From positions 26,676,347 to 26,740,346 of the forward strand of contig OX344753.2 of the NCBI GenBank assembly GCA_947034885.2: a DNA stretch of 64,000 bases. Direction: 5' to 3'. The position numbers and the translations under genes were made by a program. Each line of letters starts with the position of its first letter. Positions within the stretch are counted from its first letter, which is position 1. This document shows, piece after piece, positions 6,011 to 52,783 of the stretch. Under the pieces are notes generated by a model that saw only the letters and a list, made by a program, of their open reading frames with translations, was not told the origin of the DNA and ran no database searches. Source of the stretch: Thuidium tamariscinum (taxonomy: Eukaryota; Streptophyta; Bryopsida; Hypnales; Thuidiaceae).

Positions 6011-6077
6011 ACAGAAGGATAAACCTAAATTCGAAGAGGAAAAAGCATGTTCTCAAAAAAGTATTCTTTCCTGGCTC

Positions 6078-6593: not shown

Positions 6594-6617
6594 CACTGGG
6601 AGCTTTCAGGGCATTAG
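6594..6617 (+). repeat. left 24-bp terminal inverted repeat
   Basis: CACTGGGAGC, TTTCAGG, GCATTAG: an exact inverse match to 52756-52779. It is interrupted after GCATTAG by a GC-rich insert (6614-6920), and the homology to the right end resumes at 6921. Confidence 0.8.
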
Positions 6618-6920
6618 AGCATCTCCACTCGGGACGCGGCCCCTGCCGCATTGGCCCGGAGCTGCGGGACTGCGGGGCAGCGTCCGTGAGCCGAGCTCCC
6701 CACTCCGCCCGGCAGGCCGGGGGCACAATCCCTAACGTAACCACTCACGCCTTGGCACGTTGCAACCACTCACGTGGCAACATCCAATAGGCTTGGACCG
6801 GACGTCATTTTCACTCCCCAACGGCAAAAACGAGAATTTTGATGGCCGGGACGCCACCCAACCTCCACGCCGTGCGCCAGGCCTGACGTCCCCGCGTTGG
6901 AGTGGAGGGTACTCCCTACC
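6614..6920. mobile_element. GC-rich MITE-like insert inside the left terminus
   Basis: About 300 bp of GC-rich DNA, absent from the right terminus, breaks the left terminal repeat. Its own ends are inverted and similar: GAGCATCTCCACTC at the left, and GAGTGGAGGGTACTC (inverse GAGTACCCTCCACTC) at the right, with GGACGCGG/CCGCGTTGG just inside. The GAGCATCTCCA start resembles many plant MITE termini. Overlapping open frames on both strands here are composition artefacts. Confidence 0.5.
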
Positions 6921-6978
6921 GAAAAGAGTTAGCCCCCCTTTTAGGCCCCCCTTAGCATTGATGTCTGAGGTGGGGGGG
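6921..6978 (+). repeat. second block of the left terminal repeat
   Basis: GAAAAGAGTTAGCCCCCC through TTAGCATTGATGTCTGAGG matches the inverse of about 52685-52744 with only a few differences. Homology between the two ends stops at the G-run (GAGGTGGGGGG). Confidence 0.7.
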
Positions 6979-6996
6979 CCTCCAGGACCTATTCCT

Positions 6997-7090
6997 AGAT
7001 AAAAAGGCAAAAAGAGGGGGAGGGGGAGGGAAAAAAGGAAAAAAGAGGGGGAGAGGGAAAAAAGAAAGGAAAAAGAAAAAGAAAGAAAAT
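6997..7090 (+). repeat. polypurine tract
   Basis: An almost uninterrupted run of A and G (AAAAGAGGGGGAGGGGG and similar) directly inside the left terminal block. It could form triplex or G-rich structures. It is simple-sequence DNA without coding function. Confidence 0.7.
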
Positions 7091-8415
7091 TGAGTTTTCA
7101 AATCATTTAGAAACAGAACTTGAACATCAATATTTTATAGAAGAGAGTTGATCTCTTGATTCATTATTAATAAAGAGTGTAGATGTTTTGCACCCTTTAT
7201 ATTCACCTATGTATGCAATTCATGTAAAAGTTAAATAAAAGTAAAAGTTAAAAATAAAATGGTAACATTTGTTCTAGTTTGTTTTGTTTGTAATATTGAG
7301 ATGTCCTAGGCTTTGTGTTCATCAACCTTGTTTTTTACACCATTGGAAAGCTTGACTCAATAAATGTTGTATCATAGTTTTTTTTATGTACAAATGGGTT
7401 TGTAATAAAATTTTAAAACTATAAATTAACTCAAATTATGGAAATGGAGTATACAAGTTTTTTGATATTATCCTTGGTAACACTAAAAAAGCTTTTAATG
7501 AGTAGAAATGCACAAAAGTTGTTTAGCACATTTGGTTTTTGAGTGTGAAAGTTATGGATTTTGAATTGAATTTTGTTTGCCTAAAATTAAATATAATTAT
7601 AGATTAATTATTAAAAAAATTTAACCAAAAGAATATATAGATTAATCATGGAAAATACATAGCTACAAAAGTTGTTCCTAAATCAAATTAAAAAAAATTT
7701 ACATTCATATTCTTTGTTGTTTTATTAGGAAATTTGTGAATTAGAATAAATCATTAAATAATTCAACATTATTGAAGGAAAAAAAAATCAATAATGATAA
7801 ATTGATAGAAAATTCTATGTAATGAATGAAATTGTTTCAATGAAATGAAAATGAATGAAATCATATAATGAAGTGAAGGAAATACAAAATGATTGCAATG
7901 AAAGTTGTCATATGATTTGTAAAAAAAAACATGTGTTCAAATAGCAATGTATATAAATGATGAACAAAACTTTGTAAGAAAAATGAATATTACAACTAAA
8001 TTCTATAAATCATCATAGTTTTACATGTATAATAAACTATATATGAAATGAAATGCACATGAATTCTAACATAACTAAATATTGTATCTACTAAATTTTT
8101 TGTTTTCCTCTTTTGTCTTCATCCTTTTTTTTTCTGTTTCAATTGGAATTGATCTCAGATGAGGAAATTAGAATTTCCAAGGCAATTTTCTATGTGACAA
8201 TAATATTTCCATCGTATTGCAAACTTTTCCCAATCAATCATAGTACGATTGTTTGGTTTGATATATTTCTTTTTGTTTTGATGGTGTAATAAATATGAAA
8301 ACAACTGAGTCTCTTTTTCAGAGTATAGAGTACCTTTTGTTGCATATGGTACAATAGCTGAGTCAATGTCTTTAAGACTTGGAAGTTGACTACAAAGTGG
8401 AGGCTCATATATAGA
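7091..8415. other. AT-rich spacer inside the element, no gene seen
   Basis: About 1.3 kb, with many ATGAATGAAAT-type short repeats around 7800-7870 and no open frame above chance. It lies downstream of the transposase-like gene (which reads minus) and so would be its 3' flank and the element's subterminal region. Confidence 0.5.
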
Positions 8416-11400
8416 TTATGATCTCGATACTTGTGAAGAATCCATATCAACCAAAGGCAATGATGGAAAATTTTCTATGATTTCAACTTCAGCTAGCGTC
8501 TCGACTTCTTCAACAAGGTCTTGAGAAATATCACCAACAACATTAAAATTAGAAGATGGTGGGATTGAAAGTTGAGTTTGCAAATACTTATACCGTCTTC
8601 GAAGTTGTTCATGTGAATATTCACAAAATCCCAAAATGCCCTTGGATGCTAAAGCATTCCATTGGGGCATTATAGAAACTTTCCAACGAATTGACTTTGA
8701 CACAGTTTGTTCATCTTTTACCATAGCCAATAATGCTTCATCTGGTGATAATGTAGAATAACGTGAAATAAGGGGTAGAACATTACTCTCACAAGGAAAA
8801 CTAGTAATATCAAGGATGCATACATTTTCTTCTTCATGAATAACATGTGATGCACCAATATCTTGAGTAACTTGTGCTTCTTGTCTAAGATATGAAGTTG
8901 TTGTTTGAAGGGTACTGATAATACTTGAAGTTCGTGTTTTAGAATTAAATGTAGTTTGGAATTGTACCATTGCAACCATATCAAGTAATTGTTGTTTTAA
9001 ACTTTGCAATGGTTTAGGACGCAAATAGGCTTTGAAAGAGAAATCACTTTGTCGAATGGCAAAAATGCATACGTCCCAAACTCGAAAGAGTGCATTATAA
9101 TTGAAACCTTGGAGAGGAAAATCTTTCAAGCTAGAAAGTGGTTCTTCTGTAAAACAATGCATAGTAATAAATCGCAAAACTCGCCGCTCTAAAGGATTAA
9201 ACATATGTGATAGGCCCATGATTGAATCCTAGAGTACAAGGCTATCAAAGGCACTAAACCTGTGATTGCCAAGAGTATTAAGAGAACCTGACCTTTTCTT
9301 ATGACTTGATGTTGAGCCATGAACATGAACATCTACAGTCCTTTGTCTCTTCAATGGATTGCCAATATTTTTTTGAACCACTCTCAGAGTAGCATTGTCT
9401 TCTTCATTTGATGCAATATAATGGCTATTCAAGTTTGAATTTCCATCTCGAACTTGCTCTGTAGCATTAACCACTTGTTCTGCAATTGGATCAAATGTGT
9501 GGCTATCCCAAATAGCATAATCAACCAATGATGTAATGCCAACATTTAAACATGTTGTTTGGTCAAATGATATAAGTGGCAATGATGGCAACGTTGGCAA
9601 TGAGTCAAAGAAGGAATTGGTAATGCCAAATTGATTATCACAATCATGTAGCGATAATGGCAAAGGGCAGAATATGGTGCACACTCCATTTGTAGAGGAC
9701 AAATTAGACCGAGAACGCAAGGCTAAGTCTTGTGTCAAAATAATGTGCATTGTTGATATAGGTAAGTATGCCCATTTATCATTGAATTGTACTTCTCCAC
9801 GGAAATTCCATCCACATACTAATGCAGTAGTAAGTGCATCACCAAAGAAAATCCCACATGACTCTGGAAATGAAGCTCGAAGGTGTCACCAGAAGTTTTC
9901 ATTTCGTGAAGATTCACGGCGTAATAAATGTCTATAAAAACGATCCAATATCTCATGTAGAAGCTTTGAAGGAGGATTCAAACACTTCATAAAGTATTTT
10001 TGTTGTGTCTCATGGCATCTTATCAATGGCTCTCCAATAATACGTTTAGATGCTGGTAAATGTGATTCGAAGTTTTGGAAATTTTCAATAAAAGCTGAAA
10101 GTTCCGCATAAATGATAGAACCTTCTTGCATTTGACTTCCATGTCCAATGATGATCTTAGATACATTATTCATGAATAAAGAATGTCGAGATTTGTTAGT
10201 TGCATTTGAATTATCTCAATATCGAGTTATTAAATGAAAATTATCAAGTAGAATTGGACTCTATGGAAATGCTTCTCTAAACCACTGACAATCATCACAA
10301 CATTTATCCAAATACATAACGGGATGAATATTCTGCGATCGTTGAGAGTATCGCACCTTCAATTCTTTGGCAAGGTCTACACGTTCTTCATTAGTTGTAG
10401 AATTAGTCCATCGGTGAGTAATAATCTGATGTCGTTCGTTCATAACAACAAATAGTCCATCTATAGGTGCAAATTTTTGACCTGTTGTAGGATCATCAAT
10501 TTGAATTCTAGCAAGTACATTATGATGATGATCTGCTGCCAAATGTGACCCTACTAAACCACCTTCAAAACGTTGAAAAAACTTTTTTTGTTGACTTGTT
10601 ATAGCTTCAAATATGGATGTTGCAATTTGCCTTGAAGGACCTGATGTTCCATTAAATCCATTGCAATGTTGATAAAACATAGGAAAATCTAGGAAGGTCT
10701 CTTTTGATACAGTATAAGAGTGGCCCCCTACTACCCCATTGTAATAATCAATGTGTCCTTTCCATGCCAATGACTGTAATATAAAATAAGATGTTTGAGC
10801 TTTTTTGACCATGGCTATAAAATCATTAATTCTTGCACGACTTGTTGTCAAATCATACATTGATTGAACTAAAGAAGTAGTCCAAGCAATTGTATGAAAT
10901 ACTTGCACTGGACATTGTAAAAATGCCTCATAAGGAACGATGTTGTTTTTTAAAACATCTTCATCCATGATATTTAATGTTGCACCACATCCATTTTTGG
11001 TTGCACAAATGTAAACTGTGGATGTAAAATAACAATCATATTGCAAGTCATGGACATGCCTTGGTAAAGAAAATTCTTTGAATCTCAAGAAACCTTGTTT
11101 TTGGCAAGTTGGACACTTTTGAGAGGAAATAGAAATGCCTAATTGCCGTTCTGGATGCCAAATACTCAAAGGCTTCAATAAATAGTCATCTAAGCTTGGC
11201 CGCATGCTCCACTTTGGTCTTGGTGGATAAGTCCATAAAGGAATGTATTTATGATCATCTTATTTGAATTGATTCAAAATAGCCTTGATCCATGTTGATT
11301 GTACCACATTCAAAGTACCAAAAGTTTTGTCACATTCACCACATTTCATAGAAGTAGGACATTCAAGTGGAGAAGAATATTGTGGAGGCAATAGTTGAGG

Positions 11401-11544
11401 TATAGAGTGCACCTCTGAGGGAATAACAAGCTCTTCACGAAGTCTTTGAGAGTTAAGGACCTCCTCCAAAAATTTTGAGATTCCATACATCTTGAAATCT
11501 ACATAGAAAAATAGTTCAAATGTAATTATTTCAAATGTGAACAA
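8416..11544 (-). pseudogene. transposase-like gene (DUF6729-type), five in-frame stops
   Basis: One minus-strand frame of about 1,043 codons runs from 11544 to a TAA at 8416. Premature stops sit at 11260 (TAA), 10261 (TAG), 10216 (TGA), 9886 (TGA) and 9229 (TAG), yet there is no frameshift. In order it shows: CGEC (about residue 70); YIPLWTYPPRP; HPERQLG then CPTCQKQGFLRF (zinc-binding pair); CATKNGCG; an ADHHH acidic-histidine site; IDGLFVVMNE; YLDKCCDDCQWFREAFP; LLDNFHLITRY; and a C-terminal KWKV-like region with IMPQWNALASKGILGF. The CPxC module, followed by D...NE...D.CC...FP, resembles DUF6729-type proteins with a transposase-like fold. I name that family from memory, so treat it as probable. 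Each stop could come from CAA, CAG or CGA by one C-to-T change, as expected from methylated-cytosine decay. Confidence 0.65.
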
Positions 11545-12480
11545 TAATCATTGACTACTTTTGAATAATTCAAATATAAAAAATTATTAAAACCAAAATA
11601 TCAATCTTTACAATCAAATGTATGAACATCCAAATGACATTGAGAAATAGGATTGCTATGTATTACCTTCTTTGAAACTCCAAGTACATGAATTCTTTCA
11701 AAAATATGAAATAAAATAAAAATACTTCACAATGTCAAATCATTGTAGTTGCAATAGTATTGGACCTTCAAAGTCGTTGATGTATTTGTAATATGCTGAC
11801 TTGAAGGCAAATGGTTCTACAAAAATGAAACAAATATAAGTGTGATACATTTAATTTCATAAAGTATAGATGTTAATAAGTTGATGAATTGAAGAAATTA
11901 GAAAAAAAAATATCCAAAAGTATCTAAACCTTTCCTAGTGTTTATACTTTATATTTAGTTTCTAGTAATTTTTACTTAACATGCTTTTAACTATAATGAC
12001 CTCATATTCACTAAAATGATAGGTATTGATAAAAGAAGACCAATTTAGCTAAATAACATCTAGTGGTTTTTTTGGGCAATTTATCATCAATTTGCACCAA
12101 AATAATGGGTTCAATACAAATCCCTTCAAGCAAAAGTTGTAAAATTCTCAATGAGATGGCCAAACAAAATCAAATTTTAAAAAAAACTTGGATGAAATTG
12201 CCAGATTGTGGATAAAAGAAAACAAAAATATGAATATGTCACATGTGCTAATGAGATATTTTTTATTCAATAATTGAAAAATAGAAGCACTACTACAACA
12301 TTGAATATCACCACCTTGTCACTTCATAAAAAATGGGAAAACAACAAAACCATAGTGGTACTTCATATAGAAGGATGAATACTTGGTTACAAATTAATGA
12401 ATTTGAAAGTAGAGGTCTTGAAAAGGCAATCCATAAACTAGTCCATTTTCAAACATGTACATGATAACAAATGAAATAAT
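11545..12480. other. AT-rich spacer upstream of the transposase-like gene
   Basis: Contains no open frame of note. If the decayed gene was once transcribed, its promoter would lie here, but no distinct element can be pointed to. Confidence 0.45.
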
Positions 12481-12800
12481 AAGGTAGAAGGTTATAAAGT
12501 GAGTAGGCTCTAAAATAGAAGACCTCTTTAAATGTACACCATTTGTACATGTTGTTTTTTCATAGGATTTTTGAAATGTACATTTTGTGTAGATTTAAGA
12601 TAGTGCTATATTTTAGAGCTCTATGTCATTTGAACTTCAAAATTAATAAAACTAATCCCACAAAGCTCTAAAATATACGAAACAACTTGAATTAGATGTC
12701 AATTCTAAGTGTCTTTTAAGGAAAATATATTGAAAAATATTTCAAGTTGTTTCACCTTCCAAAATCAGATGTAGCCCTTACATGCTTCATTTATAGACCT
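12481..12800. repeat. R1 repeat, copy 2
   Basis: Begins AAGGTAGAAGG and ends with TTATAGACCT exactly where copy 3 starts with the same AAGGTAGAAGG, so copies 2 and 3 are head to tail with a 320-bp period. It carries the TGTACA blocks around GTTTTTTCAT, with a weaker stem than copies 1 and 3. Confidence 0.75.
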
Positions 12801-13135
12801 AAGGTAGAAGGCTCTTAAATGGAGCGGGTTCTAAAATGGTGCCCTATCTTAAATGTACAATAGTTGTACATGTTGTTTTTTCATAGCCTTCAGCAGTGTA
12901 CTGACAGTGTACATTGTAGCTAGGGCACCATTTTACAGCCTTAGGCCTTTTCAACTTCAAAATTTGATAACTAATTCAAAAAAGCTCAAAAAAATATGAA
13001 ACGACTTGGGTTAGATGTAAATTCTACTTGTTTTTCAAGGAAAATTTACTGAAAAATATTTCTAGAGGTTTTATCTCCCTGAAATTCTGTTTCAGCCCCT
13101 AGATGGTCCATTATAGGACCTCTTACCTTACCTTA
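12801..13135. repeat. R1 repeat, copy 3, with perfect 15-bp stem
   Basis: TAAAATGGTGCCCTA (12832-12846) is exactly inverse to TAGGGCACCATTTTA (12921-12935), 74 bases apart, enclosing the TGTACA blocks and GTTTTTTCAT. The tail (AAGCTCAAAAAAATATGAAA, then a GGACCTCTTACC end) matches the other copies. Confidence 0.75.
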
Positions 13136-13447
13136 ACCGTTGCAAGAGAGTAAAACTCAACTGTAAACACTTCAACACTACAAGGTGTTGTTGCTTAGAT
13201 GTAGAATTTTGACTTAGCTGCTCAAAACAAAATGGTTTCATAGGCATAGTATGATTTCTAAATTACTCTTTCAAATTACAACACTACATGTTTCAAGATT
13301 TTCTACCTTAATAATTGGAGCTCCAGGAACTGGAATGCATATGAATCAAAATCAGCTCAAGTCAAAAGATTAAGGAGAATGAAGGTGGAAATTTTTGAAC
13401 CTGTATAAATGGCAAATATAAACCAAGTTAAATCACCATCTTCCGTA

Positions 13448-13492
13448 AGTTGCGATGAGCAATGAGCGATGAGTTGCGATGAGTTGCGATTG
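13448..13492. repeat. short tandem GCGATGAGTT repeat
   Basis: Four or five imperfect 10-bp units of GCGATGAGTT/GCGATGAGCA. It lies at the start of a GC-richer block (13430-14470). Confidence 0.7.
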
Positions 13493-13745
13493 AAGCATCC
13501 AATGTGAATCTTGATCAGAGTCATATGATCTCCAGTCCAATGGCCCTCTCCAGCCTCTTCATTACCATCCCCATCTTCTTTAATTCAATATTGCAAAAGT
13601 TTACTGCTTCCAGTTGACATCGACACAGACTCCTCTTCTCGAATTCTGCATTCAGATTTCACAACCTTCACGAATTCCCCTCTGTCTCAATGCACAACAG
13701 AGCAACATCAAGTGAAAACCTACATCAACGATTGCAAACTTAAAA

Positions 13746-13910
13746 ATGATGAGCAACACTCAACAACTTGTAGATAAGTATCTGATCCAAATTTTCCGGA
13801 CTGCACCGTTGAAGCTCAAATCCGACTTAGGCGGATCACTAAAGATTCATCTCATTCACTTAAGCCAAGGTCTTGTACTCTTCTCGTGTGTGAAAGATGC
13901 TACCAAGTGA
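13746..13910 (+). CDS. small coding-like ORF, possible exon fragment
   Basis: A 54-codon frame beginning MMSNTQQLVDKYL and containing QIFRTAPLKLKSDL and HLSQGLVLFSCV. Its composition is like real protein and the surrounding 1 kb is GC-richer than the repeat DNA, so it may be a captured exon or a leader region. A 70-codon frame follows in another phase (13897-14109). I recognise neither. Confidence 0.25.
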   Translation: MMSNTQQLVDKYLIQIFRTAPLKLKSDLGGSLKIHLIHLSQGLVLFSCVKDATK

Positions 13911-14471
13911 GCACAACTTGCATTTTAATCATGGAAGCAAAGAAATGCTAAACCTTACAATTTGTCAAATTGATCGAGAACAATCTGTTTTGGCAAGTTT
14001 CTCGCCCATCAACACACTTCCTATGAAGATTCCACAAGGATGTAATGTTTTGCAAGAGCACACGCAAAATGTTTGTTTCGACAATCCTAAATCCTCCCAT
14101 CATCAATAAGTTTCAGTTGAGATAATGAATCATACCTTGGTTGGAGACTTGCGGCTCCTTCTTGCAACGACGTGAAGACTTGAAAATTTCTTGCCCATGC
14201 TCTAGTTGCAGAGACCACAATTCATAGTAGGAGGATCTTCTACTTCAAAGAAGGTGGAAATTCAAATGCACGGCCCTCTAACACTCTCCAAGTCCACCAG
14301 CCTTAAGCTAGTCGGAAGCGCCAGAGCCAGAGAAACAGCGCCACAATACAAGCGACAACCCAAGCAGGTGTAAACTGAACTCAAAGATGGCAGACCTCAT
14401 CCACCAAACTTCATCACTTTCAAGTGATTGTCCTACTTTGACCTATCTGACAATGAGACCCCACGGAAGGG

Positions 14472-14708
14472 GAGCAAAACTTTACCCCCTCCATTAGGCC
14501 CGTTTTTGTACGCGTTAGGTCAGGCTAATGTCTTGTCATTGGTAGCGATATGGATGGATTTTCGATGGATTTTGGATGAATTTATGCCAATTGTGGATGG
14601 AAATTGTGAACATATTGAATGAATTCGTTATGTATTTGGATAAATTCCATTCTTTATTCAGATGAAATTTGAAAAGGATGGATGCTTTTGTGATCAATTT
14701 TGGATGAA
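14472..14708. repeat. diverged outer extension of the left palindrome arm
   Basis: From GGAGCAAAAC inward this is homologous, in inverted orientation, to 52473-52687, but it is not identical. I count about nine substitutions, a 1-base indel, and a 24-base indel near 14690-14708. Outside GGAGCAAAAC the two sides are unrelated: the right side continues into the element's terminal repeat, the left does not. This contrasts with the identical arms that begin at 14709. Confidence 0.8.
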
Positions 14709-14835
14709 TTTGTGGTCAAACTTGGATGAAATTCAATCATGATTGGATGTATTTTGTTGTACAATTGCATATTTGTCAACCACAATGGAAACTTGTAGAT
14801 GAATCACAATTATAGATGAAAAAGTGGATGAAACT
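14546..14835. repeat. subterminal TGGATGAATT short-motif repeats
   Basis: Many imperfect copies of TGGATGAATT, TGGATGGATT and GGATGAAA spaced 10-40 bases apart. The inverse set (AATTCATCCA) lies at 52346-52630. Clustered short motifs near the ends are typical of transposase-binding subterminal regions in CACTA elements. The identity boundary of the palindrome falls inside this array. Confidence 0.7.
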
Positions 14836-15320
14836 GGGAAACTAGATGCATAAAACATGTACTGCTTATAGCATTGTTTATTGAGGAAATGGTAGCTTCA
14901 GAGTACACTTTCTTACTAAAAATTCTTCCCCTACTTCTACACTTGCACTCAACAAACTATTGACCTGCAACCACAAAGCATTTTGTTGTCAACAACTTTT
15001 ATACATCAATTATGAATCATTGATAGCAATGAACACACATGCATGACAATTAACTACATGAAAAATTCCAGTTGCAATATGCCCACATTGCCAATGCTCA
15101 AGGTAGTGCATCTTCAAAACAGATACTAGAGAATGGAGATCAAAAAACAAAATCCTTGCAACAAATACTTTTTCAAACAAGATTTTCCTTGAGCAAACTA
15201 TTTGGTGAAGCAATCTTTCCTTAAATTGAAATGAGAAGTTCAATAAACTTGTGAGCCTTTAAAGTTTTAAAATTCCCACAAGATTAACTTCTTTCAAACA
15301 ACGAAGGTAAAAAGGCATAC

Positions 15321-15391
15321 CATTCCAGATGTCTATCATCACAAAGAATTTGTTGTTCATAATCCTCAATGGCCCTTTCATTCTCGATAAT
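15321..15391 (-). CDS. orphan exon, left arm
   Basis: Mirror of 51790-51860. A 71-bp open segment flanked by TTCAG acceptor and GGTATG donor shapes encodes IIENERAIEDYEQQI followed by LCDDRHLEW, a charged, helical-looking peptide. It is on the same strand as the MECR exons but is not part of that family, so it may come from a second captured gene. Confidence 0.35.
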
Positions 15392-15423
15392 CTGAATACA
15401 TACAAGGTGAGTTATTTATAAAT

Positions 15424-15592
15424 TCATAACTAATTCTACAAAGCTCCAAAAAAATATGAAACGACTTGGGTTCCATGCCTATTCAAGTTGTCTTTCAAGA
15501 AACATTCACTGAAAAATATTTCAAGATTTTTGACCTGCTCAAAACTCTGTTCCAGCCCTTAGATGGTCGATTTATGGACCTCGTCCCTTATT
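15424..15592. repeat. R1 repeat, partial copy (left arm)
   Basis: Only the 3' half of the R1 unit is present: AACTAATTCTACAAAGCTCC, ATATGAAACGACTTGGGTT, a CACTGAAAAATATTTCAAG segment, and a GGACCTCG end. Mirrored at 51589-51757. Confidence 0.7.
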
Positions 15593-15981
15593 AAAATCTC
15601 TGAATGGAACCTTGTCAATTCTAAGACACCACACCCTCCCACGTCACCAACTGCCCTCACGCATATATATTTACTCAAAGGATACCCTATTTGATTCACG
15701 ATGCTTTTAGTGATAAAGTAATGTTAGTACAATAGAACACTACATCAATATTGAGATCACGGTACGTCAATGCTGATTAGATGTTTAGTAAATATTTGTT
15801 GTATAGTATAGGGTTATTACTAGTTAAGTGATTTCTTAAAATCTCAGATTGCGGGATTGCAAAATTCCAGGACTTGTGAGCATATCTCACACATTCTACG
15901 GGTCTACAGTTCCTTGTGGGAAGACCTGATCTCCACGAACTTGAATATCAAACTTTGAGAATGGGAGAAGCGGTGACTTAC

Positions 15982-17624: not shown

Positions 17625-18109
17625 AAGATTGAATCTTCAGATATTGACAAAAAAATTGAAGGATTGAGTCGCCATGGTAGACTTAGCTAAGGGATTGCCT
17701 TAAACAACCACAAACTTATCTAGAATAAGAGAACGTTTGCTTATAAATAATAAATACAACAAATAAACACATACTTCCTTCATACTCAACATGTTCAGTA
17801 GCTACCTCACCTTCACAACTTCAAAAAATTGAGGCTTGTATCTGCAAGATCAAATAAACAAATCATCACTTTTAAGTAAGAAGACATGCTGTCCTTCAAT
17901 CAATATATCATACAAACTCAACAATGTCCATAAATCATGTTAAGCAACAACTGCAAAATGTGATCTTTAATTCCAATCCAACACTTAAACAAATACATAG
18001 AGACTTAAGGCTCAACCACGTGTAGTACACAATATGATTATAATGAGTATAATAATTCATGGATATTAAATCAGCATGCCTATTCTTTGGAGACCACAAC
18101 CGTTGAATT

Positions 18110-31439: not shown

Positions 31440-31453
31440 TGAAGCATGGTTGA

Positions 31454-35670: not shown

Positions 35671-35723
35671 AAAATTGGCTCGTGAGCATATTCTTCTGTA
35701 CCCAAACACATTCTCTACCTTTG
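35525..35723. other. 199-bp asymmetric palindrome spacer (copy 2)
   Basis: Same sequence and orientation as 31458-31656, with the same arm junctions. Confidence 0.85.
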
Positions 35724-35741
35724 TGGCTCAACCATGCTTCA

Positions 35742-40700: not shown

Positions 40701-43700
40701 TTAGGAATTGCATTATGATGGTTGTAACTTTGAGCACTTGCTTCTCCTTCATTCAATGTTTTTTTTCAATAAAATTTAATGGATTTTGTTTCATTTGAAG
40801 TCTAGTTATTGTGATAAAGTTTTAATATCAATCCAACTTGTTTTGAATGTTTGGGAGCAATTCAAAGTTCAAAATGTAGACATTTTTTAATAACATTGAA
40901 CTTTGGTGGCCTTTTTCTTCTTCATAGTCACAATGTTTGTTTCCAATAAAAAATTTAGAAAAGTTTCCTAGAATCTAGTTTTTGTGATTAAAGTTACATA
41001 ACAATTCAAGAAGTTATAAGACTAAGAATTATTTTAGTAGAAGTAAGTTCAACAATGTATGTATCTTTTGCACCAATTTCTTTTTGCTATTTTTAGACAT
41101 TTCAAAGGTCATTTCACAAAGACAACACAATTGAATGCCATTTTTTTCACCAATGTATTTGAAGCATTTTAGTAGAAGGAAATTCAACCATAGATGTTTT
41201 TTTTTCACCTTTTAAAAAAAATCATTTTTGACATTTCAAACTATTCAAAGCCATTTTGTGAAGACAATGAATCAATTGAATGACATTTTCTTTCACCAAT
41301 GTGTTTGTATGTTGATTTTGAAGTACTATGTAGTTCAAAGTTTTTTCACTTGAGTAGGTTTAGAAATCAAATTTTCCCTCCAAATGTGTTGTTAGGAAAA
41401 TTTCAATATGCTTTTACAACACTAAATCATTATAATCTTGCAATCTATATGGCCAAACAAGACATATACCACGAGATTGAACATTTGAGATTTATATACC
41501 TTAGTAACATTTAAACCTAAAATTGAATTTTATTAGAGGAGTGGTTCTAATAAACTATCCATTTCAATATTTGAAATATTTTATTTTAATGAAGATTAAA
41601 TTTTTTCTTAAAACTAACTCAAGTACACATTCCATTTTAAAATAATATCCTTGTTCACTTAGATCATTACAAGTTAGATACACATGTCCTACTTACTCTT
41701 TCAAATGAAGTGACGTTGTTGGTTTTTCCATTAACTTTTGAATCCAAAGCCCTAAAAATATGAAATAATTAATGAATCTATCTAATTTAATGGTATTTAT
41801 ACCCATTCTTCAAACAAATTTTTTATTTTGAAGTTATAATTGAAGCTTCATAATTTGTCAAACTCTCAGGTTTAGGGATTTTCATGACATTTGGTGTGCC
41901 CAAATTGAATTATCTAGAGTTCAAATTTTAGTGGTCTATTCCTACACTAAGTAGGCATAAGCCTACCAAGGATTTTTTTTATAAATATATTATTTTATGT
42001 CCTCCAAGTCCATTCAAATAGGGTTCTCTAGGAAGAGCACTTCTAATCATTGAAGATGGTATCAACTTCATGTTTTTGGATAAATTTGATCACCATCAAG
42101 TACTTACAAATGGTCAGTTTTTAGTTTTTTATTTCATGATTTTCTATTTATTATTAATTTATACATGAGTGTTTCTAAATTTTGTGACAATTTGTCTTTT
42201 TTTCTCGTAGTATTGCTTTATTACTTGCAAGTAGTCTATAGTTCTTGCAACACTACTTTTAGCCATCATTTTTTCCAATCAATGGTTGAGATTGTTCTTC
42301 TATGAAAATCTCCTAGTATTTTGAGACTAAAGTGAAAATTTAGCCAAAACAATATTGAGAATGAGGTGTGTTCTTTACAGTGACCTTGTTGGACAAAATG
42401 TTTGGAATTATGGCTGATAACAACATTTTTAAAACCCATTTCAAGTTGTTAGTAAAGTGTAGTGCACATCTTGAAACTTTGAGGTTTTGGAACCCTTTTC
42501 AAAATGTAGTTTTAGAATATTTAAACTTTTGATTTTTGAACCATTTCTAAAGAGCACCAATGGCCACTCAATTACTCATTGTGTGCTCATTCACTTGTTC
42601 ATTGTATAGTATATCCAAAATGTAGAAGCTAGCCTTCAAAATTGAAGCAAATTGTAGATTCAAGAGGTGGAAGTTGTAGAAGTGAGTTGCATACTGTTGA
42701 TTTGACTTATTAATTCACCCTCCCTTCCATTAGAGCAATAAATCCATTCAACCCAAATACTTAGGATTGTTTATTGAAAAGGTTGCAAAATAAAAGACTC
42801 AATTGGCATAGAAATATAAATGCTCCCTATTTTTATGGATTTCACAACTATAATTGCTACAATAGGTAGGAAAGTGCCTTCCAATTACCTTCTTTCTACA
42901 ATAGAAAAATCATTTTGGGGAAATAGAAAAATCATTTGGGGACAATAGAAAGATCACTTTGGAATAGAGGGAGAACAATTTTATCAACAAGAGATCTTTC
43001 AAAAATGGAAGTTTTTAGTTCTAGTAATTGCATCTTTGAATGGCATTCATCCAAATGAAAATGCATTATTTCAATGTTTTTGAAGAAACAAGTATAACTA
43101 TTTTAACCTTGAACAAGTAGAGAAATTGATAGTAAAATATGAAGCATAAAAGTTGAAGTTGTATAAATTTGGTTTAGGATGTATCTTAGATAGAACATTA
43201 CATAGCAATAATTATTATTGTAAAATAAGTAAAAGCTTACAAAGTGTGCTTTTCATATTCTTTACAACAGTTCTTGTTATTCATTAAAACTGTAACAAAT
43301 TACACTTCAATAGATTTAAAGATCATAAAGAATGGTAGTTGTGAAAACAATGGCAAAACGTGTCACTTCCTATCAATGAATTTGAAATTGATTTTCAACT
43401 TAAATTGATCGAGACAAAGAAAAATCCTAAACCTATCATACATTATGTTTGAACAAAAGTAGAGTATATTTAACCCCGTAGTGCCTGGGGAGCCATTTCA
43501 TAGCTTTTGGATGACTTCAGAGGGTCATAAGAAGACCTAAACAATAGTTTTTTCATCCACCTTTTTTTAATGACCTTTTATGTTGAGTTACAAAGAGTGT
43601 CCAACTGAGTTTTTAGTCTTATTGATATTTTTTTCCATGTAGTTGAGAAGTAATTAAGAAAAACGGATGGCAATTTAGTATGTATTTTGAGAAATTGAGT

Positions 43701-46520
43701 AAATCTAAATTTCTCCTTGAAAACGACATTTTTTGAATTTCAGCCCAACTAATGAAATGAAGACCCTCTACTCTAGTTTCTTCTCCAATTGGAACTTTTG
43801 AATAATTCATAAAATTGTATATTTTATTGCATCTTGAACTTTATCTGCATTTTTAATGTCTATTTAATTCTAATTATAGAAGTACACGGAAGTTGAGTTT
43901 ACACCATGATGTTTGTCACCCTAATGTACACACGTCCTGAAATTTTTAGATTTTTTGAGATAATTTTGTAATTGATATGATTTTTTCTTCACTTTCTCTT
44001 AAAAAATTATCAGAAAATAAATTTTCCTCAAAAAAATCTAAATTTTTTGTGAAACAGAGAAGATATGTACTTCTATCTCTGACAAATAAAAATAAAAATT
44101 TTCATACATATGTACTTCCGAAATGGTAACAAACTGAGTGACAAACAAGGAGGCTTCTAACCGGTGGTTATAGCTCCATCCTTTAAGGATTAAGATTGTG
44201 GTTTTCCTTTTCAACAAATAAAGTTGCTTCATTGCAAAAGATATGATTCAATATTGGCACACCATATTTTTTGAAATTGGCCCCCATATTGATAGTAGAA
44301 TAAAGATTGTACTATGACTAAAAATAAGTAGAGTAACACATAAAGTATGTAAAACATATTGTTACAAGTGAAAAACAATTGTAACCCTTTGAGAAAAGAG
44401 TTATACATTCCATATCACATTTATGACATTGAAGCTTCAAATGTTATATAGATGTTCAAAAGATTTGATACCTAAAATTAGGCTATTTGTTTTGTAAGTT
44501 TGTCTATTTGTTATATTGACAAATCTAGAACTACATGTCCCCATGTCACATTCTTGGTACCATTGGAAAGCCCTTGGTGAGGAGGTATGTAGGAGCTTTG
44601 TTTTATGGCACTTGGACATACAATGTCAAAGTTGTGAATTTTTTACTTCTTTTTAAGTCATTTTAAATTTATTTTTTAAATTTATAATTGTAGCAATTCT
44701 ATAGGGCACACTAGTATGAATGATAATGGAGTAGGTGCACAACTTCTATTTGTCTTGCAACAAAAATTCATTGGATAATGTTGTAAGCAATACAAACCCT
44801 TCAAATATATGAATTAACCGTGAAAGGGACAATTTTAGCACCTTCGTTTAAAACTCAAGAACAAAAGTTATACCAAAATAAGTTCAAAACAGAGGAGACC
44901 GTGCAAGACAAAAGAAATTTCAACATTTTAGTTTTTAAGGAAACAAAATATCTTTGCATAAATTATATTTTTGTCTACATGCAAAGCTTTTCTTTGTTTC
45001 ATTTGGATCTTTTATAAGAGAATTATGGACAATTTTATTTTCGGGCAATAAAATCATCTTCTTGAAAAAATGATTAGTCTTGTAGGATTCAATTTTGAAA
45101 GCAATTTTTATAATTCAAGGTTCAAAATTTCCACACAGTTTTTTTTTAGTTTTTTTTCTGTAAAATAGTTCTACCATTGAGATTAGTGCATATAATTCCA
45201 TCTTGGAGATATTAATTATATATCTTTTCCGTCAATCTCATACGTGTTTGTATAAAACAATTTTTTAATGAATGAAAAGAATATAAATTAAGTTATTTTG
45301 TACTTTTTTTACCCATAGACTTTCAACTGAATTTTACACCACAAAAATTTATAGTTGAAAATTCTATTGTGTAAAAAAATAAAGGTAAGGTAGTTCAAAG
45401 TCATATAATCAATTTCCGCAATGTGCTTAAACACTTGTTTTTTTTCACTTTAAATGTAGAGATCTTGCAATTAGTGCAATATGAAATTTTGAAATTTTGA
45501 AATTTTTCCACACACTCTTACACTAGATGCGTATAAGATTTTTTTTTTGATTTGAAACAAAAACAGTTTCTAGGTTTTTTTATTCTTTGCTACAGAAATA
45601 GTAGTGTTCAATGTTATTTCAAAGAAATAGGGCCTCGGTCCCTTTGGGGTGGCATGGAAAATCCACCAATTATTTATTTATTTATTTTGTGGAATTAATG
45701 ATTGAATTTTAGGAGACTATCTAAGAAGTGAATGTTGATTATGTAAGACTCTACGTTGCAAAGCTTCTAAAAATATGGAATAAAATGTGGAGGAAGAAGA
45801 ACGCACTTAGCGAAATTATGTACTTGTAAATGCCCAAGATATTTTTGTAGCTTCTAGGGATGTGATTTAAATTAAAGAAATTCCTAGTATTTCAAAAAGT
45901 TGAATTCTTATTGGGGGTTTAATAGTAACTATATGAATTCTAATTTCGCATACTAAAGATCACATTGAGAAGAAAAAAAAACAATATCACTTATTGATTG
46001 AAAGGTTATAATGTTTGATCATGAAGGTGTTAATAATGATTCAAAGATTTGAAATCTTCCTATCCTTTTTGTACATGTTCAATTTAGGAATTGGTTCAAC
46101 AAAAAAATAAGAAATTGAAAGGGCCTACTTAAAATGCACTTTTGAAATCATATGATGGCTTTTGAAAATGCATGCACCAATTGTTTTGAATAGTTTACTA
46201 ATGTGATTTTTGACCAATGTCTTCTTGTATTGAAAGACTCATTTTTTTAGAAGCCTTCACTATTACGGAAAGTCAAGATTGCAATGGACACTCTTGCACA
46301 AAATAGTGAATATAGAAATTGAAAGCAATTATTTTTCAAATCCTAAAAATAAATTTCAATTTTTTTCCTATAAATGCAAAATATTAGAAATAAAAACTAT
46401 TTAAGTTTTTATTACTTAATAGTATTGCAAAATATGAGGATTTAATGGTTAACTAATATTCACCAATTCACATGGCACCGTAATGTTAACAGGCCTCCTA
46501 AAAAATCCCGTCGTTCCAGG
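37789..46520. other. AT-rich repeat DNA of the right arm, no gene seen
   Basis: Mirror of 20661-29392, with the same short, motif-free frames and dispersed repeats. Confidence 0.6.
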
Positions 46521-48132
46521 GACGGGACCTACATTTCCCGCATGCCAAGTGGCTCCACACCTCCACGAACAGTTGCATCATTTCTTCCGCGGCTACAAAG
46601 TCTGCGTTTTTTTTGAGTTCCACTTACCTCCTCGCTCTTTGTGTAGAAGGATTTGAGCAACATTTTCAACGACGACGTCGCGCAATACAGTGTGTGAGTT
46701 CTTGTTTTATTTGATTTTGTAATTGTTGGTAGCAGTTCCAAATTTTTAGGTGATGGATATGCGAGAGATGGGTTCAACGTTGATTTGTATTTTTGTAATT
46801 TGGCTGAATTGGACATAAGGTCGCCGTCAGGCTTTCAGAATTGTGAAATGAAACATGGTCGGTGTGGTCTGGTCTAGGCTGCTCTAGGTCGAGGGTTGAG
46901 GGTTTCGTTGTGGGCGGGGAGCGAACTCGGGAGCTGGCTTTCTTGAGAAGTGAATGAAGCCTGCGAATGAAGCTCCTTTTCACAATGGCACATGGGTTTG
47001 CTAACTCATACTGTGCTACATTGTTACGCTAGGAGTTGCTTTGATTTGTCTCATTGAACAGATGTTGCATGGGTTTTAGTTCGTCTTGATTATCTCGCAG
47101 CTGCTACCTCTGCTAAAAAGCGATTTGTGTGTATGGAGTGTTTGTGCTGTAGAAGATACTATTGTTGATTTCTAGAATGATGAAGTGTCTTTTGAAATTT
47201 GGTCACTAGTATCAAGGTATGTTTACTCATTTCTAAAAATTCTACGCTTTCTTAGACAACAGAAATGCCAAAACGTGAGTACATTAGGGTTTCTATTAGT
47301 TGTTGCCGCTTGAATTGAAAGAGTGTGGATAAAAACTCCATGGACCTGGCTCTTCGCAGTTGGTACACTCTTCATCCTAATTAGTGTTTCTTTTAAAATA
47401 CAGTTACTCCTACAAGAGAGATGAGAGCGAGGAGTGTTGTTTGATGAAACTGGCTTGGTGTGAGCTTTTGGTCTCTTTAGTCCCCAAATAGCCTTCGTTA
47501 ATGGTCCATTTGATCATGTTCAAGGTAGCTAGGAAATGTTAGGCACCTTGATTTTAATCCCTCGCTTAATTCTCCTGAATTTGGACTTCCATGGGGTATC
47601 TAATGAAGCAGTATTCTAAGGTAGGAGAATGATTTTTCTTGCCTATGTATGAAGTCCCATCCTTATGAAGGATTGAGCGGCCCTCATGTTTTTTTATTAG
47701 CCCTTTCCAGTAGGTCATATGAGGTCTTTTTTTCTTCTCAGTTATATTTACTTTCTGACCATCTTATGTAATGCTCTTCACTGATTCTGGCGGTACCATG
47801 TGAATTATATGTTTCCAAGTTTTGCATTCGGAAAATTGAAGGTGGATTAGATGAATTGTCTTTTAATATCCTTAATTTCAAAGACGGTACAATGTGAAGC
47901 ACGTGATCTCTAGTTCACTTGCAGGTAACTAATGTGAGTTGTGGAATGCAGGTCTTACTATATATTTCATTCCGCATTGAACCACCTTTGCGGTGAACAG
48001 TTGCCGTTCCAACTGCCGAAGTGAAGGTTTGGATATCTTCCACGTTGAACAGACAAGTTTTTATGTGTTTGTGAACTCATGAGGAGTGTATTTTGATGAA
48101 ATTTTTGTTGTGGTCGCAGACTGACTAGCACT
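46521..48132. promoter_or_regulatory. probable upstream region of the zinc-ribbon ORF, right arm
   Basis: GC-intermediate 1.6 kb directly 5' of the zinc-ribbon ORF. Composition jumps at about 46500, and the first 500 bp look like a leader or promoter of a host gene. No single promoter motif is convincing. Mirror of 19049-20660. Confidence 0.3.
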
Positions 48133-49071
48133 ATGGTGCTTGCACAATGTTGCAATGTTTGCGGAAAGCAATTTCCGAGAGAAATTTTGCAGTTCTGTGG
48201 CACTTGTGGTGAAAAGAGATTGGAAGACAAAGTTGGGGAAGAGCAACTGGTGATAGAAGATGAAGGTAGCATGAGAGGTCCTCCTGCCCGAGTTGCACTC
48301 AAGGATAGAACTGTAAATACACTTTCCTACTGTCAGGTTTTTGCTCCTCCCGTTTGTCGGAATGAGAATAAGCTGTATGGGAAGAGAGCTTTGTTGGCTG
48401 CAAAAATGGGCATTCAACACAGAATAATGTTAGATAATTATGAGCAAGTTAAAAAATGTGTAAAGCTTGCACAAGAAGCTGGGAAATTGCTTGAAGGAAT
48501 CTTTAGCTTAGACGAACTAGGAGTGCAGGATAGTTTGAGACAAGTTATAAAAGAAAATTGTCGAACACTACAAGAAGTGAAATTGGGGAATAAAAAACAT
48601 AAATGGGATGAAAGAGGGATCTATAAATTTTTTAAACACCATTTAAGGTACTTGAGAAGAAAAAAAAGAATTGCAGATAAATTGATTGGGACCGAAGGCT
48701 CTGCGAGACAAGTTCAGGATGACGTCAATGTTCCTGGAGAAGAAAATAGGGATTCTTTTTTAATGGATAGAATCGAAGGCAATGAGACATCGGAAAGAAC
48801 AGTATGTGAAGAAGGTGCAGTTGAGGTGCCTGAAATAGAGCCGACACGAACCATAGAAGACGATGAATCCTATCTGCTATTGGTACTTTCATTACCTACA
48901 GTTGATGTTATGAAGAAATACTTAAGAAAGGTCATTGAAGATGTAAACGTAAGAGTGAAGCCAAAACCATTTGGAGTAGGCTATCGTAAATGGTCAAAGG
49001 AGAAGCAAGTGACAGAGGTGGCGAAGTACTATCGCATACAGTCTTCAATGACACATGCAACAACACTTTAA
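48133..49071 (+). CDS. 312-aa zinc-ribbon protein, unrecognised, right arm
   Basis: Identical to the left-arm copy (18110-19048). The ATG at 48133 is the first in frame and directly precedes the CCNVCGKQF zinc knuckle, so the start is credible. The frame closes after SSMTHATTL. Downstream, 29 bases at 49341-49369 look like a small exon (YKPQFFEVVK between AG and GTGAGG), and then the MECR exons follow on the same strand. The ORF and the MECR fragment could have been captured as neighbouring host genes in one event. Confidence 0.65.
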   Translation: MVLAQCCNVCGKQFPREILQFCGTCGEKRLEDKVGEEQLVIEDEGSMRGPPARVALKDRTVNTLSYCQVFAPPVCRNENKLYGKRALLAAKMGIQHRIMLDNYEQVKKCVKLAQEAGKLLEGIFSLDELGVQDSLRQVIKENCRTLQEVKLGNKKHKWDERGIYKFFKHHLRYLRRKKRIADKLIGTEGSARQVQDDVNVPGEENRDSFLMDRIEGNETSERTVCEEGAVEVPEIEPTRTIEDDESYLLLVLSLPTVDVMKKYLRKVIEDVNVRVKPKPFGVGYRKWSKEKQVTEVAKYYRIQSSMTHATTL

Positions 49072-49556
49072 AATTCAACGGTTGTGGTCTCCAAAGAATA
49101 GGCATGCTGATTTAATATCCATGAATTATTATACTCATTATAATCATATTGTGTACTACACGTGGTTGAGCCTTAAGTCTCTATGTATTTGTTTAAGTGT
49201 TGGATTGGAATTAAAGATCACATTTTGCAGTTGTTGCTTAACATGATTTATGGACATTGTTGAGTTTGTATGATATATTGATTGAAGGACAGCATGTCTT
49301 CTTACTTAAAAGTGATGATTTGTTTATTTGATCTTGCAGATACAAGCCTCAATTTTTTGAAGTTGTGAAGGTGAGGTAGCTACTGAACATGTTGAGTATG
49401 AAGGAAGTATGTGTTTATTTGTTGTATTTATTATTTATAAGCAAACGTTCTCTTATTCTAGATAAGTTTGTGGTTGTTTAAGGCAATCCCTTAGCTAAGT
49501 CTACCATGGCGACTCAATCCTTCAATTTTTTTGTCAATATCTGAAGATTCAATCTT

Positions 49557-51199
49557 CCAAAACAGTAATTATGTTGCTACAAACAAGGCTTTTCCCGTTG
49601 ACTTGAGTGAATTGGATGATGTTGATTGTTTGATGGGTGGACTATCGTTGCCAGGGGATGTTGTTGTCCAGAATGGGGCAACTAGTATGGTGGGCCAATG
49701 TGTGATTCAACTAGCGCAACTTGTAATGTACATACTGTAAATCTTGATCGACATAGGTATGTTTAACACAATGAAGCGTACGGTAATGTGCTTTGTGAGT
49801 CTTGCTGATGTCCTAATGTGCATGGTTTCTAATGCTTGCACTCTACTTCATTAAACATCTGGTAAGGTTTGAGAAGGTCACTATTTCCTTGGATTGTTTT
49901 TTTTCGTTGGTTTTTCTTCATAATAATTGCTATCTGGAGCTAGACACACGTACGTCTTGTTGATGTCATGCTTGTTATAATCAGACCAGGAGTGGGTGAA
50001 GTGAAAGAGAGACTGCTGAGCCTTGGTGCCGAGCACGTGCTCACTGAGGAAGAGTTGGGCAAGCTGGACAAGAAAACGTTCTTGGTATTCTTTTGTTCTC
50101 TACTATGTGCTCGCAATTTAGAACGTTTCATCGGAGGTTAGGTTAATTTTTGAGTTGGAAAATTCTATATCTTCCTGGTATAATGAGGATTTTATGTACA
50201 TAGTTTAATCACCCAATAGAGATCATGGCTTTATGGTTGTCACCAGCTTCCTATTTGTTGATGAGCGCGGCAACGAACATATTTCATACTTTGTAAATTC
50301 CATTCAATTTGTGTTTGGACATTGTACAGAAGGAGCTTGGAGCGGAAGCAAACCTAGGTCTCAATTGTGTAGGCGATTCTGCTACAACTGCTGTTTTAAA
50401 GCTATTGGGGTAAGTTCACTAGTCTAGGAGTCACGAGTTCATATTGTTTTCATTTTCTTGCCAATCAGTGGAATCTTTAGGATATTTAGGAGATTGCTAT
50501 TAGATGGGGTGATAGTGACTCACTAATGTTTCTAAGCTTCCGAAGGCTCTAGCAAATGGATGGTCGTCTGTTTCGACCGTATTGCAGCTTTGGAACACAT
50601 ATCACATTAACTCCACTTGATGTTGTACTTTCTTCTTTTAACTTAAAGTAACCAAAATTAACACTTATTAATTTATTGACTTCCAAGACTTGAATTTTCA
50701 ACCTCAAGTGATGTCACAGAATTTTGAATTCAGTTGATCCAGATTTTTACTCGACTATGGAGGTGTTCATTTCTCTGTTTATGCTTTGAATCTCAAGGAT
50801 GGGGGTAATTTGGTAACATACGGTGGAATTTCTAAGAAGCCCGTCACCGTTGCTACTGGCCCTTTAATTTTCAAGGTGAGCTCATTCATAGTATTGAGTT
50901 GAAATAGTTTAGATAAGCGTCATTCGTTTCCGATTTGATGACCAAATGAATATCTATATATGTGTAAATTCGACTTGGTTAATCATGTGACATTCTTTGA
51001 AAGCGTGACCAATGATACTAGTGTTCTCCTTCTAGCCTGAAACCCTGTGCCTTCCATGCTCACACTGTAGCCTACATTTCATCAGGTGCAATAGTGGGTT
51101 CTGGCTGGGGAAGTGGAAATCAAAACATTCTAATGAGGACTTTACGGTAATGATCAACAAGCTTCTTGGACTGGTTCGGGATGGCAAGTTACAATATGC
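49557..51199 (+). pseudogene. MECR: mitochondrial trans-2-enoyl-CoA reductase fragment, right arm
   Basis: Five exon-like segments with GT-AG borders: about 49557-49722 (ends VVQNGATSMVGQCVIQLAQ then L, donor GTAATG); about 49967-50084 (RPGVGEVKERLLSLGAEHV, TEEELGKLDKKTF); 50330-50409 (ELGAEANLGLNCVGDSATT, donor GTAAGT); 50798-50875 (GGNLVTYGGISKKPVTV, LIFK, donor GTGAGC); and 51086-51199 (GFWLGKWK, MINKLLGLVRDGKLQY, donor GTAAGT). This is the order of the medium-chain reductase/MECR family, the last reductive step of mitochondrial fatty-acid synthesis. The first segment has lost the AATI...NPLTAL part between VATNKAFPVDLSEL and LSLPGDVVVQN. The N-terminal catalytic domain and the C-terminal FPVALDKALG-type end are not found. 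It is a non-functional or captured fragment, and introns were retained, so capture was from DNA, not RNA. Confidence 0.78.
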
Positions 51200-51588
51200 G
51201 TAAGTCACCGCTTCTCCCATTCTCAAAGTTTGATATTCAAGTTCGTGGAGATCAGGTCTTCCCACAAGGAACTGTAGACCCGTAGAATGTGTGAGATATG
51301 CTCACAAGTCCTGGAATTTTGCAATCCCGCAATCTGAGATTTTAAGAAATCACTTAACTAGTAATAACCCTATACTATACAACAAATATTTACTAAACAT
51401 CTAATCAGCATTGACGTACCGTGATCTCAATATTGATGTAGTGTTCTATTGTACTAACATTACTTTATCACTAAAAGCATCGTGAATCAAATAGGGTATC
51501 CTTTGAGTAAATATATATGCGTGAGGGCAGTTGGTGACGTGGGAGGGTGTGGTGTCTTAGAATTGACAAGGTTCCATTCAGAGATTTT

Positions 51589-51757
51589 AATAAGGGACGA
51601 GGTCCATAAATCGACCATCTAAGGGCTGGAACAGAGTTTTGAGCAGGTCAAAAATCTTGAAATATTTTTCAGTGAATGTTTCTTGAAAGACAACTTGAAT
51701 AGGCATGGAACCCAAGTCGTTTCATATTTTTTTGGAGCTTTGTAGAATTAGTTATGA
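51589..51757. repeat. R1 repeat, partial copy (right arm)
   Basis: Inverse of 15424-15592. Confidence 0.7.
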
Positions 51758-51789
51758 ATTTATAAATAACTCACCTTGTATGTATTCAG

Positions 51790-51860
51790 ATTATCGAGAA
51801 TGAAAGGGCCATTGAGGATTATGAACAACAAATTCTTTGTGATGATAGACATCTGGAATG
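51790..51860 (+). CDS. orphan exon, right arm
   Basis: A 71-bp open segment, preceded by GTATTCAG and followed by GTATGCC, encoding IIENERAIEDYEQQI then LCDDRHLEW. It lies 590 bp past the last MECR exon, beyond an R1 remnant. I do not recognise the family. Confidence 0.35.
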
Positions 51861-52472
51861 GTATGCCTTTTTACCTTCGTTGTTTGAAAGAAGTTAATCT
51901 TGTGGGAATTTTAAAACTTTAAAGGCTCACAAGTTTATTGAACTTCTCATTTCAATTTAAGGAAAGATTGCTTCACCAAATAGTTTGCTCAAGGAAAATC
52001 TTGTTTGAAAAAGTATTTGTTGCAAGGATTTTGTTTTTTGATCTCCATTCTCTAGTATCTGTTTTGAAGATGCACTACCTTGAGCATTGGCAATGTGGGC
52101 ATATTGCAACTGGAATTTTTCATGTAGTTAATTGTCATGCATGTGTGTTCATTGCTATCAATGATTCATAATTGATGTATAAAAGTTGTTGACAACAAAA
52201 TGCTTTGTGGTTGCAGGTCAATAGTTTGTTGAGTGCAAGTGTAGAAGTAGGGGAAGAATTTTTAGTAAGAAAGTGTACTCTGAAGCTACCATTTCCTCAA
52301 TAAACAATGCTATAAGCAGTACATGTTTTATGCATCTAGTTTCCCAGTTTCATCCACTTTTTCATCTATAATTGTGATTCATCTACAAGTTTCCATTGTG
52401 GTTGACAAATATGCAATTGTACAACAAAATACATCCAATCATGATTGAATTTCATCCAAGTTTGACCACAAA

Positions 52473-52687
52473 AGCATCCATCCTTTTCAAATTTCAGTTG
52501 AATAAAGAATGGTATTTATCCAAATACATAACGAATTCATTCAATATGTTCACAATTTCCATCCACAATTGGCATAAATTCATCCAAAATCCATCCAAAA
52601 TCCATCCATATCACTACCAATGGCAAGACATTAGCCTAACCTAACGCGTACAAAAACGGGCCTAATGGAGGGGGTAAGTTTTGCTCC
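52473..52687. repeat. diverged outer extension of the right palindrome arm
   Basis: Inverse-homologous to 14472-14708 at roughly 96% over aligned bases, plus indels. It continues outward into the terminal block of the element, so the right side is the original element end and the left counterpart is a truncated second copy. Confidence 0.75.
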
Positions 52688-52779
52688 CCCCACCTCAGAC
52701 ATCAATGCTAAGGTGGGCCTAAAAGGGGGGCTAACTCTTTCCAGGTTAGCCCACCCTAATGCCCTGAAAGCTCCCAGTG
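52685..52779 (-). repeat. right terminal inverted repeat of the element
   Basis: Uninterrupted version of the terminus. From 52779 inward on the minus strand it reads CACTGGGAGC, TTTCAGGGCATTAG, GGTGGGCTAACC, then AAAGAGTTAGCCCCCC and TTAGCATTGATGTCTGAGG. The left terminus has the same blocks, split by the insert at 6614-6920. Confidence 0.8.
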
Positions 52780-52783
52780 GGAA

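Follow-up and report, generated by a model that had tools for sequence, protein, structure and literature searches.

A palindromic CACTA derivative with two left ends interrupts an F-box gene in Thuidium tamariscinum

The window analysed here is a 64-kb stretch of the Thuidium tamariscinum genome (assembly GCA_947034885.2, contig OX344753.2; C5:26676347-26740346), in which a large insert divides an F-box gene into two halves. Both ends of this insert are of the left (L) type, and it is therefore classified as a derivative of a CACTA transposon and not as an intact, ordinary left-right member of that group. Its body reads as two left halves joined inside the transposase gene tnp2, with no right (R) half. 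We hold it to be probable that the right half of a CACTA element was lost and the left half was doubled into an inverted dimer, and that gene conversion has acted between the two arms since. The main interest of the insert lies in the recurrence of a similar form at other tnp2 loci of the same genome. The genome-wide searches were made in the 363-Mb assembly (19 sequences), and window positions are counted from the first letter of the window.

Structure and size of the insert

Most of the insert is taken up by a 16.7-kb palindrome, which a preliminary description made from the letters of the window had missed, while the ends had been seen correctly. The two arms (Table 1) were 99.82% identical overall by repeat search and self-comparison, and the interior of 16,749 bp was free of differences (16,757 bp at a rounded 100% in the repeat tool), corresponding to an upper 95% bound on arm divergence of about 1.8e-4 for this interior. 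Seven substitutions and two insertions or deletions (indels; 22 and 1 bp) were found in the approximately 230 bp of the outer arm edge. As in fold-back inverted duplications, the inverted copies are separated by a single-copy spacer, here of 199 bp. Within it the left tnp2 copy extends by about 141 bp and the right one by about 55 bp, so that their tails abut. A stretch of 34 bp, with substitutions nearby, is missing from the left copy and is retained in the right copy and in a tnp2-bearing relative on C1 (see below). The motif GGCTC was noted by eye on both sides of the centre junction and is too short to decide on fold-back priming.

The palindrome is crossed by a scaffold gap of 200 N, and the contigs flanking this gap overlap by exactly 3,867 bp, both of them passing through the same centre. 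With the gap and the overlap taken out, the size of 46 kb given previously was corrected to 42,119 bp for the merged insert, of which about 34.3 kb (two arms of about 17.1 kb) remain after subtraction of the two nested elements described below. The suggestion of an unusually large cut-and-paste element is not supported: about half of the length is inverted duplicate, 4.1 kb are gap plus overlap, and 7.8 kb belong to other mobile elements. Palindromes, together with contig ends that were left unmerged, can thus make a transposon measured over a scaffold gap look too large, and gaps elsewhere in the assembly may hide contig redundancy similar to that at 33073-33272.

Ends of the insert and CACTA parentage

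The outermost 24 bp form an exact inverted pair (6594-6617 and 52756-52779) that occurs once per strand in the window; about 7e-6 such pairs are expected by chance in 64 kb at even base use, which upholds the inverted ends as they were first reported. Only their length was understated, the terminal repeat measuring about 95 bp and being followed by about 230 bp of subterminal sequence. On the left, the terminal repeat is broken by two nested insertions, neither of which is present at the right end: a dispersed repeat of about 0.3 kb follows its first 24 bp, and a 7.5-kb element (hereafter element A) its first 83 bp or so. The genome search for further copies bounded by the 24-bp ends, which had been proposed as a check, returned no other exact copy and two further sites at three mismatches, the limit of the search. 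Both insert ends carry CACTGGGAGC, and CACTGGGA was found at the ends of relatives on C1 and C8. The pentamer TGGAT is present 11 times on one strand of the outer 500 bp, is absent from the next 500 bp, and occurs at 1.22 per kb further in.

Searching with the right end yielded nine matches, of which three belong to the window and the remaining six are spread over five further loci. Two relatives for which both ends were found measure 10,531 and 12,979 bp and have unlike L and R ends; they are flanked by a clean AAC/AAC (C1) and by TACT/TACT (C8), the latter being 4 bp, or ACT plus T. A third and larger relative (C1:2957500-2987499) contains an intact tnp2-like frame of 815 amino acids (aa; C1:2968292-2970736), the product of which matched Transposase_21 (tnp2 family) with an E-value of 2.2e-5 and 24.2 bits, just below the cut-off of 28.6. 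The N-terminal part of this protein has one match in the window to the left of the centre and another to the right. The larger relative, for which no R end was found with confidence, also has a second frame of 387 aa and seems to interrupt what is presumably a receptor-kinase-like gene of the malectin type.

For the classification of the ends, the outer 120 bp were scored, the left end being compared with its two nested insertions omitted. Both ends of the insert matched the L ends of four relatives at 10.8-21.3 standard deviations (SD) over shuffled sequences and two R ends at no more than 4.1 SD. Since the L ends of the relatives had been picked by similarity to the right end of the insert, which served as the query, the weight of this comparison rests on the mismatch with the R ends of the same elements and on the match of the left end. 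The parent element appears to have been CACTA-like because of the CACTG ends, the 3-bp duplication (with 4 extra bases), the subterminal repeats, and the tnp2-bearing relatives. The earlier proposal of one CACTA-like insertion in one gene agrees with the ends, the TTG duplication, the subterminal repeats, the tnp2 relatives, and the F-box paralogue; it needs revision in that the insert is not a left-right element.

Insertion site and interrupted gene

The left flank ends in TTG and the right flank starts with GGAATTG; the target duplication TTG is therefore imperfect, being set off from the right end of the insert by 4 extra bases. The two gene halves join in one frame if the CAA codon is counted once and the 4-base TTCC is omitted. 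Pfam models for F-box-like (E-value 2.6e-9) and F-box (E-value 3.6e-8) matched the frame of the 5' half. A paralogue at C8:1351356 aligns without a gap through the break codon (RYNLQ-TNPW in the window, RYNLE-ETCW in the paralogue), the one gap in the alignment being of two residues and lying further upstream. The in-frame split of one F-box gene at CAA is thereby borne out by the frame join, the F-box models, and the paralogue, and the latter also provides the related gene continuous over this codon that had been named as a check. The label "kelch", attached to the gene before, received no Pfam support in the pieces scanned. Because stops and frame changes occur elsewhere in the rejoined reading, the interrupted gene looks decayed.

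Inverted tnp2 pairs elsewhere in the genome

The tnp2 protein of the larger C1 relative was searched against the assembly; scoring of 55 of 183 candidates gave 65 matches, which were joined into 34 loci when lying within 100 kb of each other. At five of these loci, the window among them, tnp2 was found on both strands. Two match pairs are exactly symmetric at C10:8297024-8303829. The sequenced centre of this locus contains no N, and 414 of its 424 positions agree with their mirror positions, the other 10 lying no more than 13 bp from the midpoint. At C2:7148574-7150463, the sequenced part, likewise free of N, is palindromic (895/897 identical); this pair and that of the window fail the automatic pair criterion, the two matches at C2 differing in length. 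C7:19871900-19957707 has three pairs, two exactly symmetric and the third within 3 bases; some 81 kb separate the two sides, which were identical at 519 of the 520 positions sampled. The two pairs at C7:16108183-16123917 are exactly symmetric by coordinates only. Taken together, sequenced stretches at three of the four other loci were 99.8-100% identical between sides (for C10, outside the central 13 bp).

Inspection by eye showed no pair of equal tnp2 matches in direct orientation other than the one that the contig overlap produces in the window. In a small control with the DUF6729 protein, none of the 12 matches formed a symmetric inverted pair (by eye). The inverted tnp2 loci differ in their identity to the query (33-65%) and for this reason look like separate events. 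With similar inverted duplications at tnp2 loci of other lineages, the process seems to recur in this genome. A stretch of 7.9 kb at C2:28632955-28640875 with identical inverted ends of 2,112 bp was considered as a palindrome of the same family and rejected, its similarity to the window being patchy. It has a 221-bp piece (95%) in common with the window arms.

Origin and age of the palindrome

The formation and age of the palindrome are matters that we infer. The element, or an L-L form of it, would have inserted in the F-box gene and then lost its right side by breakage or cutting. The free end left inside tnp2 could have paired with itself in a fold-back or been fused to its sister, after which a copied L end would have been joined to the right flank via 4 filler bases. 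Subsequent gene conversion from arm to arm would have kept the interior identical while both arm edges drifted. As is expected of a gene-converting palindrome, the interior of the arms is more alike than their edges (0/16,749 versus 7/~230 differences); had edges and interior been equally old, about 510 interior differences would be expected. Since the interior is identical and the edges are diverged, either gene conversion or young arms with an outer edge from another L end may be invoked. The contrast between edge and interior alone is compatible with a young palindrome bearing a foreign edge. Gene conversion is favoured, not decisively, because the nested insertions are one-sided.

A recent formation without gene conversion is clearly less probable than loss of the right half with later gene conversion and is nonetheless the strongest competitor. 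Here the left arm would have been copied in reverse after a template switch, the copying being resolved by recombination within the 230 subterminal bp of a different L end of slightly deviating sequence, and the arms would be identical on account of their youth. It would account for the abrupt stop of identity at the outer edge and agrees with the indels at both edges; against it, the 0.3-kb and 7.5-kb insertions are present on the left only and the inner edge has drifted, both of which suggest age, and none of the L ends returned by the end searches made was identical to the right one and could have been the donor. An assembly artefact, with the mirror copy stemming from chimeric fold-back reads or introduced by the assembler where the 200 N lie, is called to mind by the position of the palindrome at a scaffold gap and by the exact overlap of the two contigs. 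We consider it improbable: the right flank is attached precisely to the terminus of a second L end that can be told apart from the first, the two sides of the centre differ by 34 bp, both contigs run through this asymmetric centre, and two other loci are palindromic through the centre without N, one of them with 2 arm mismatches in 897. The presence of an own L end and an own tnp2 truncation point on each side could also point to two separate CACTA elements that inserted nearby in opposite orientation and were later fused. An arm segment of 1.9 kb had its nearest other long match at 86% (with two 221-bp pieces at 95%) and one of 1.3 kb at 73%, so that two ordinary insertions are an unlikely source of arms identical over 16,749 bp; in addition, a single gene is continuous over the whole insert with one duplicated TTG. 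Fusion of two elements was thus given hardly any credence, and an independent second insertion as the source of the right half was rejected on the same identity of the arms and the 86% of the nearest other long copy of the segment searched.

Several observations weigh against the derivation from a CACTA element that lost its right half. The palindrome centre is known from assembled sequence alone, the GGAA extra makes the target duplication imperfect, and a recent origin with an outer edge from another L end would explain the identity of the arms without gene conversion. The 34 tnp2 loci are part of the full set, and the four other inverted loci were identified by tnp2 pairing alone, not by L ends. 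At one of them (C7:16108183-16123917), the midpoint is not palindromic (121/400), so that an inverted pair with a different middle is present. Lastly, five related loci, seen in whole or in part, had no such palindrome and showed weaker inverted repeats, the best of 581 bp at 93%.

A broader proposal, which we put forward tentatively and judge to be on the unlikely side, is that CACTA elements in this genome repeatedly become giant left-left palindromes. The transposase would cut only the right end, resection would proceed into tnp2, and fold-back or sister fusion would duplicate the left half; dimers with two functional left ends may be moved by transposase made elsewhere, and their arms would be kept identical by gene conversion. 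If this were true, a cut-and-paste transposon that repeatedly yields palindromes would offer several natural replicates with a known starting form, the intact L-R element, and a known place of breakage, in tnp2 or close to it. It would then be possible to test directly how palindromes arise, how their centres are trimmed, and how gene conversion acts from arm to arm.

Nested elements and reading frames

The left part of the insert (6594-6900) has 20 matches genome-wide, and its alignment with the right end is gapped at the 0.3-kb insertion. For element A, a separate copy was located at C1:21599465-21607090 (ends approximate), in which the version of the 332-aa frame is 96% identical and contains one stop. 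This relative stands alone in a C-rich stretch, and element A is thus an independent element. On C2 (35029.7-35032.7 kb), a shortened relative was met at the end of another CACTA-family member and in opposite orientation; its left part was aligned and its right end was matched by eye. Element A was thus observed in G/C runs and, partly on inspection by eye, in two cases at the extreme end of a CACTA element, the orientation differing between the two. No clear terminal repeats bound it, and it may represent a poorly described transposon type. The literature search for DUF6729 returned no paper, and an AlphaFold model of the 332-aa frame alone was not used (mean predicted local distance difference test score 35.6). 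Pfam scans of parts of the arms and of 7000-14400, with stops read as X, gave only DUF6342 at an E-value of 0.038, which is below the cut-off; these scans are weak negatives, as they missed the DUF6729 match of the open frame.

The 323-aa frame of the arms has DNA similarity at five related loci and is the second conserved protein of the tnp2-bearing C1 relative. Its ratio of nonsynonymous to synonymous substitution rates (dN/dS) was 0.18-0.27 in three comparisons, with 0.22 and 0.27 for the window frame against two of the related loci, values that are rough given a dS above 1, and on this ground the protein seems to have been under selection in the past; it may be a candidate accessory DNA-binding protein. 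For the host gene cargo that had been proposed, the sole hint was a weak resemblance of 24 residues to a mitochondrial enoyl reductase (E-value 0.009, whole sequence) at 17444-17686 on the minus strand, a frame that is perhaps a captured exon; the proposal is not supported.

Table 1 Features of the insert and its flanks in window coordinates
Feature	Position	Strand	Basis or remark
F-box gene, 3' half	5900-6593	-	Frame continuity and paralogue alignment
TTG duplication, left copy	6591-6593		
Left L-type end copy, outer 24 bp	6594-6617	+	Starts CACTGGGAGC
Repetitive insertion of ~0.3 kb, MITE-like (miniature inverted-repeat transposable element; our label)	6618-6918		Boundaries approximate
Left terminal inverted repeat, remainder	6919-6977	+	54/55 identical to 52686-52740
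Nested element A, 7.5 kb	6978-14468		DUF6729-protein frames; in G run
Open frame of element A, 332 aa	10261-11259	-	DUF6729 E-value 2.9e-5, under Pfam cut-off
Left palindrome arm	14469-31457	+	14709-31457 identical to right arm; outer 230 bp ~3% different
Open frame, 323 aa	18110-19081	-	Mirror copy 48100-49071 (+)
Putative tnp2 transposase, N-terminal part, 217 aa	30786-31439	+	Cut by centre; mirror 35742-36395 (-)
Asymmetric centre	31458-31656		31458-~31598 left tnp2 copy continued; ~31602-31656 tail of right copy
Scaffold gap, 200 N	33073-33272		
Contig overlap	33273-37139		Identical to 29206-33072; counted twice in window
Right palindrome arm	35724-52689	-	Repeat search and self-comparison
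Right copy of L-type terminal inverted repeat, uninterrupted	52690-52779	-	Alignment with left end
F-box gene, 5' half	52780-54445	-	F-box frame ~54242-54445
GGAA extra	52780-52783		
TTG duplication, right copy	52784-52786		

Comparison with known systems

Long palindromes are unstable and are mostly discussed on sex chromosomes. A description of a palindromic CACTA element was not found in the openly licensed literature among the matches listed. The comparisons that follow draw on excerpts of the cited papers.

The soybean element Tgmt* is a CACTA (En/Spm) transposon of 20.5 kb with asymmetric left and right borders (PMC2613891). The insert resembles it in the CACTA/CACTG-type ends, a 3-bp duplication (here with 4 extra bases), the subterminal repeats, a tnp2-like transposase in relatives, and the insertion in a gene. 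It departs from it in having a left end on either side and, as its body, an inverted dimer without a complete transposase. Long inverted arms with a standard DNA transposon beneath are also known from the foldback-like Galileo of Drosophila (PMC4168063), whereas here the arms reach 17 kb and the parent is of CACTA type; template switching during gap repair has been described for P-type elements in the same source. Fold-back inverted duplications of human chromosomes likewise consist of inverted copies around a single-copy spacer (PMC3907307), but in our insert no short inverted sequences could be clearly recognised where the spacer begins and ends. In maize, sister chromatid transposition of Ac/Ds can yield flanking inverted duplications (PMC3744419) and is comparable as a transposase-driven route to such structures, with the difference that Ac/Ds elements and flanking DNA are involved there and the element itself is duplicated here. 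Large arms of high identity are also found in the palindromes of sex chromosomes, whose arms are kept alike by gene conversion (PMC8981503, PMC7023750); those palindromes carry host genes, whereas the one described here is built from a transposon on C5.

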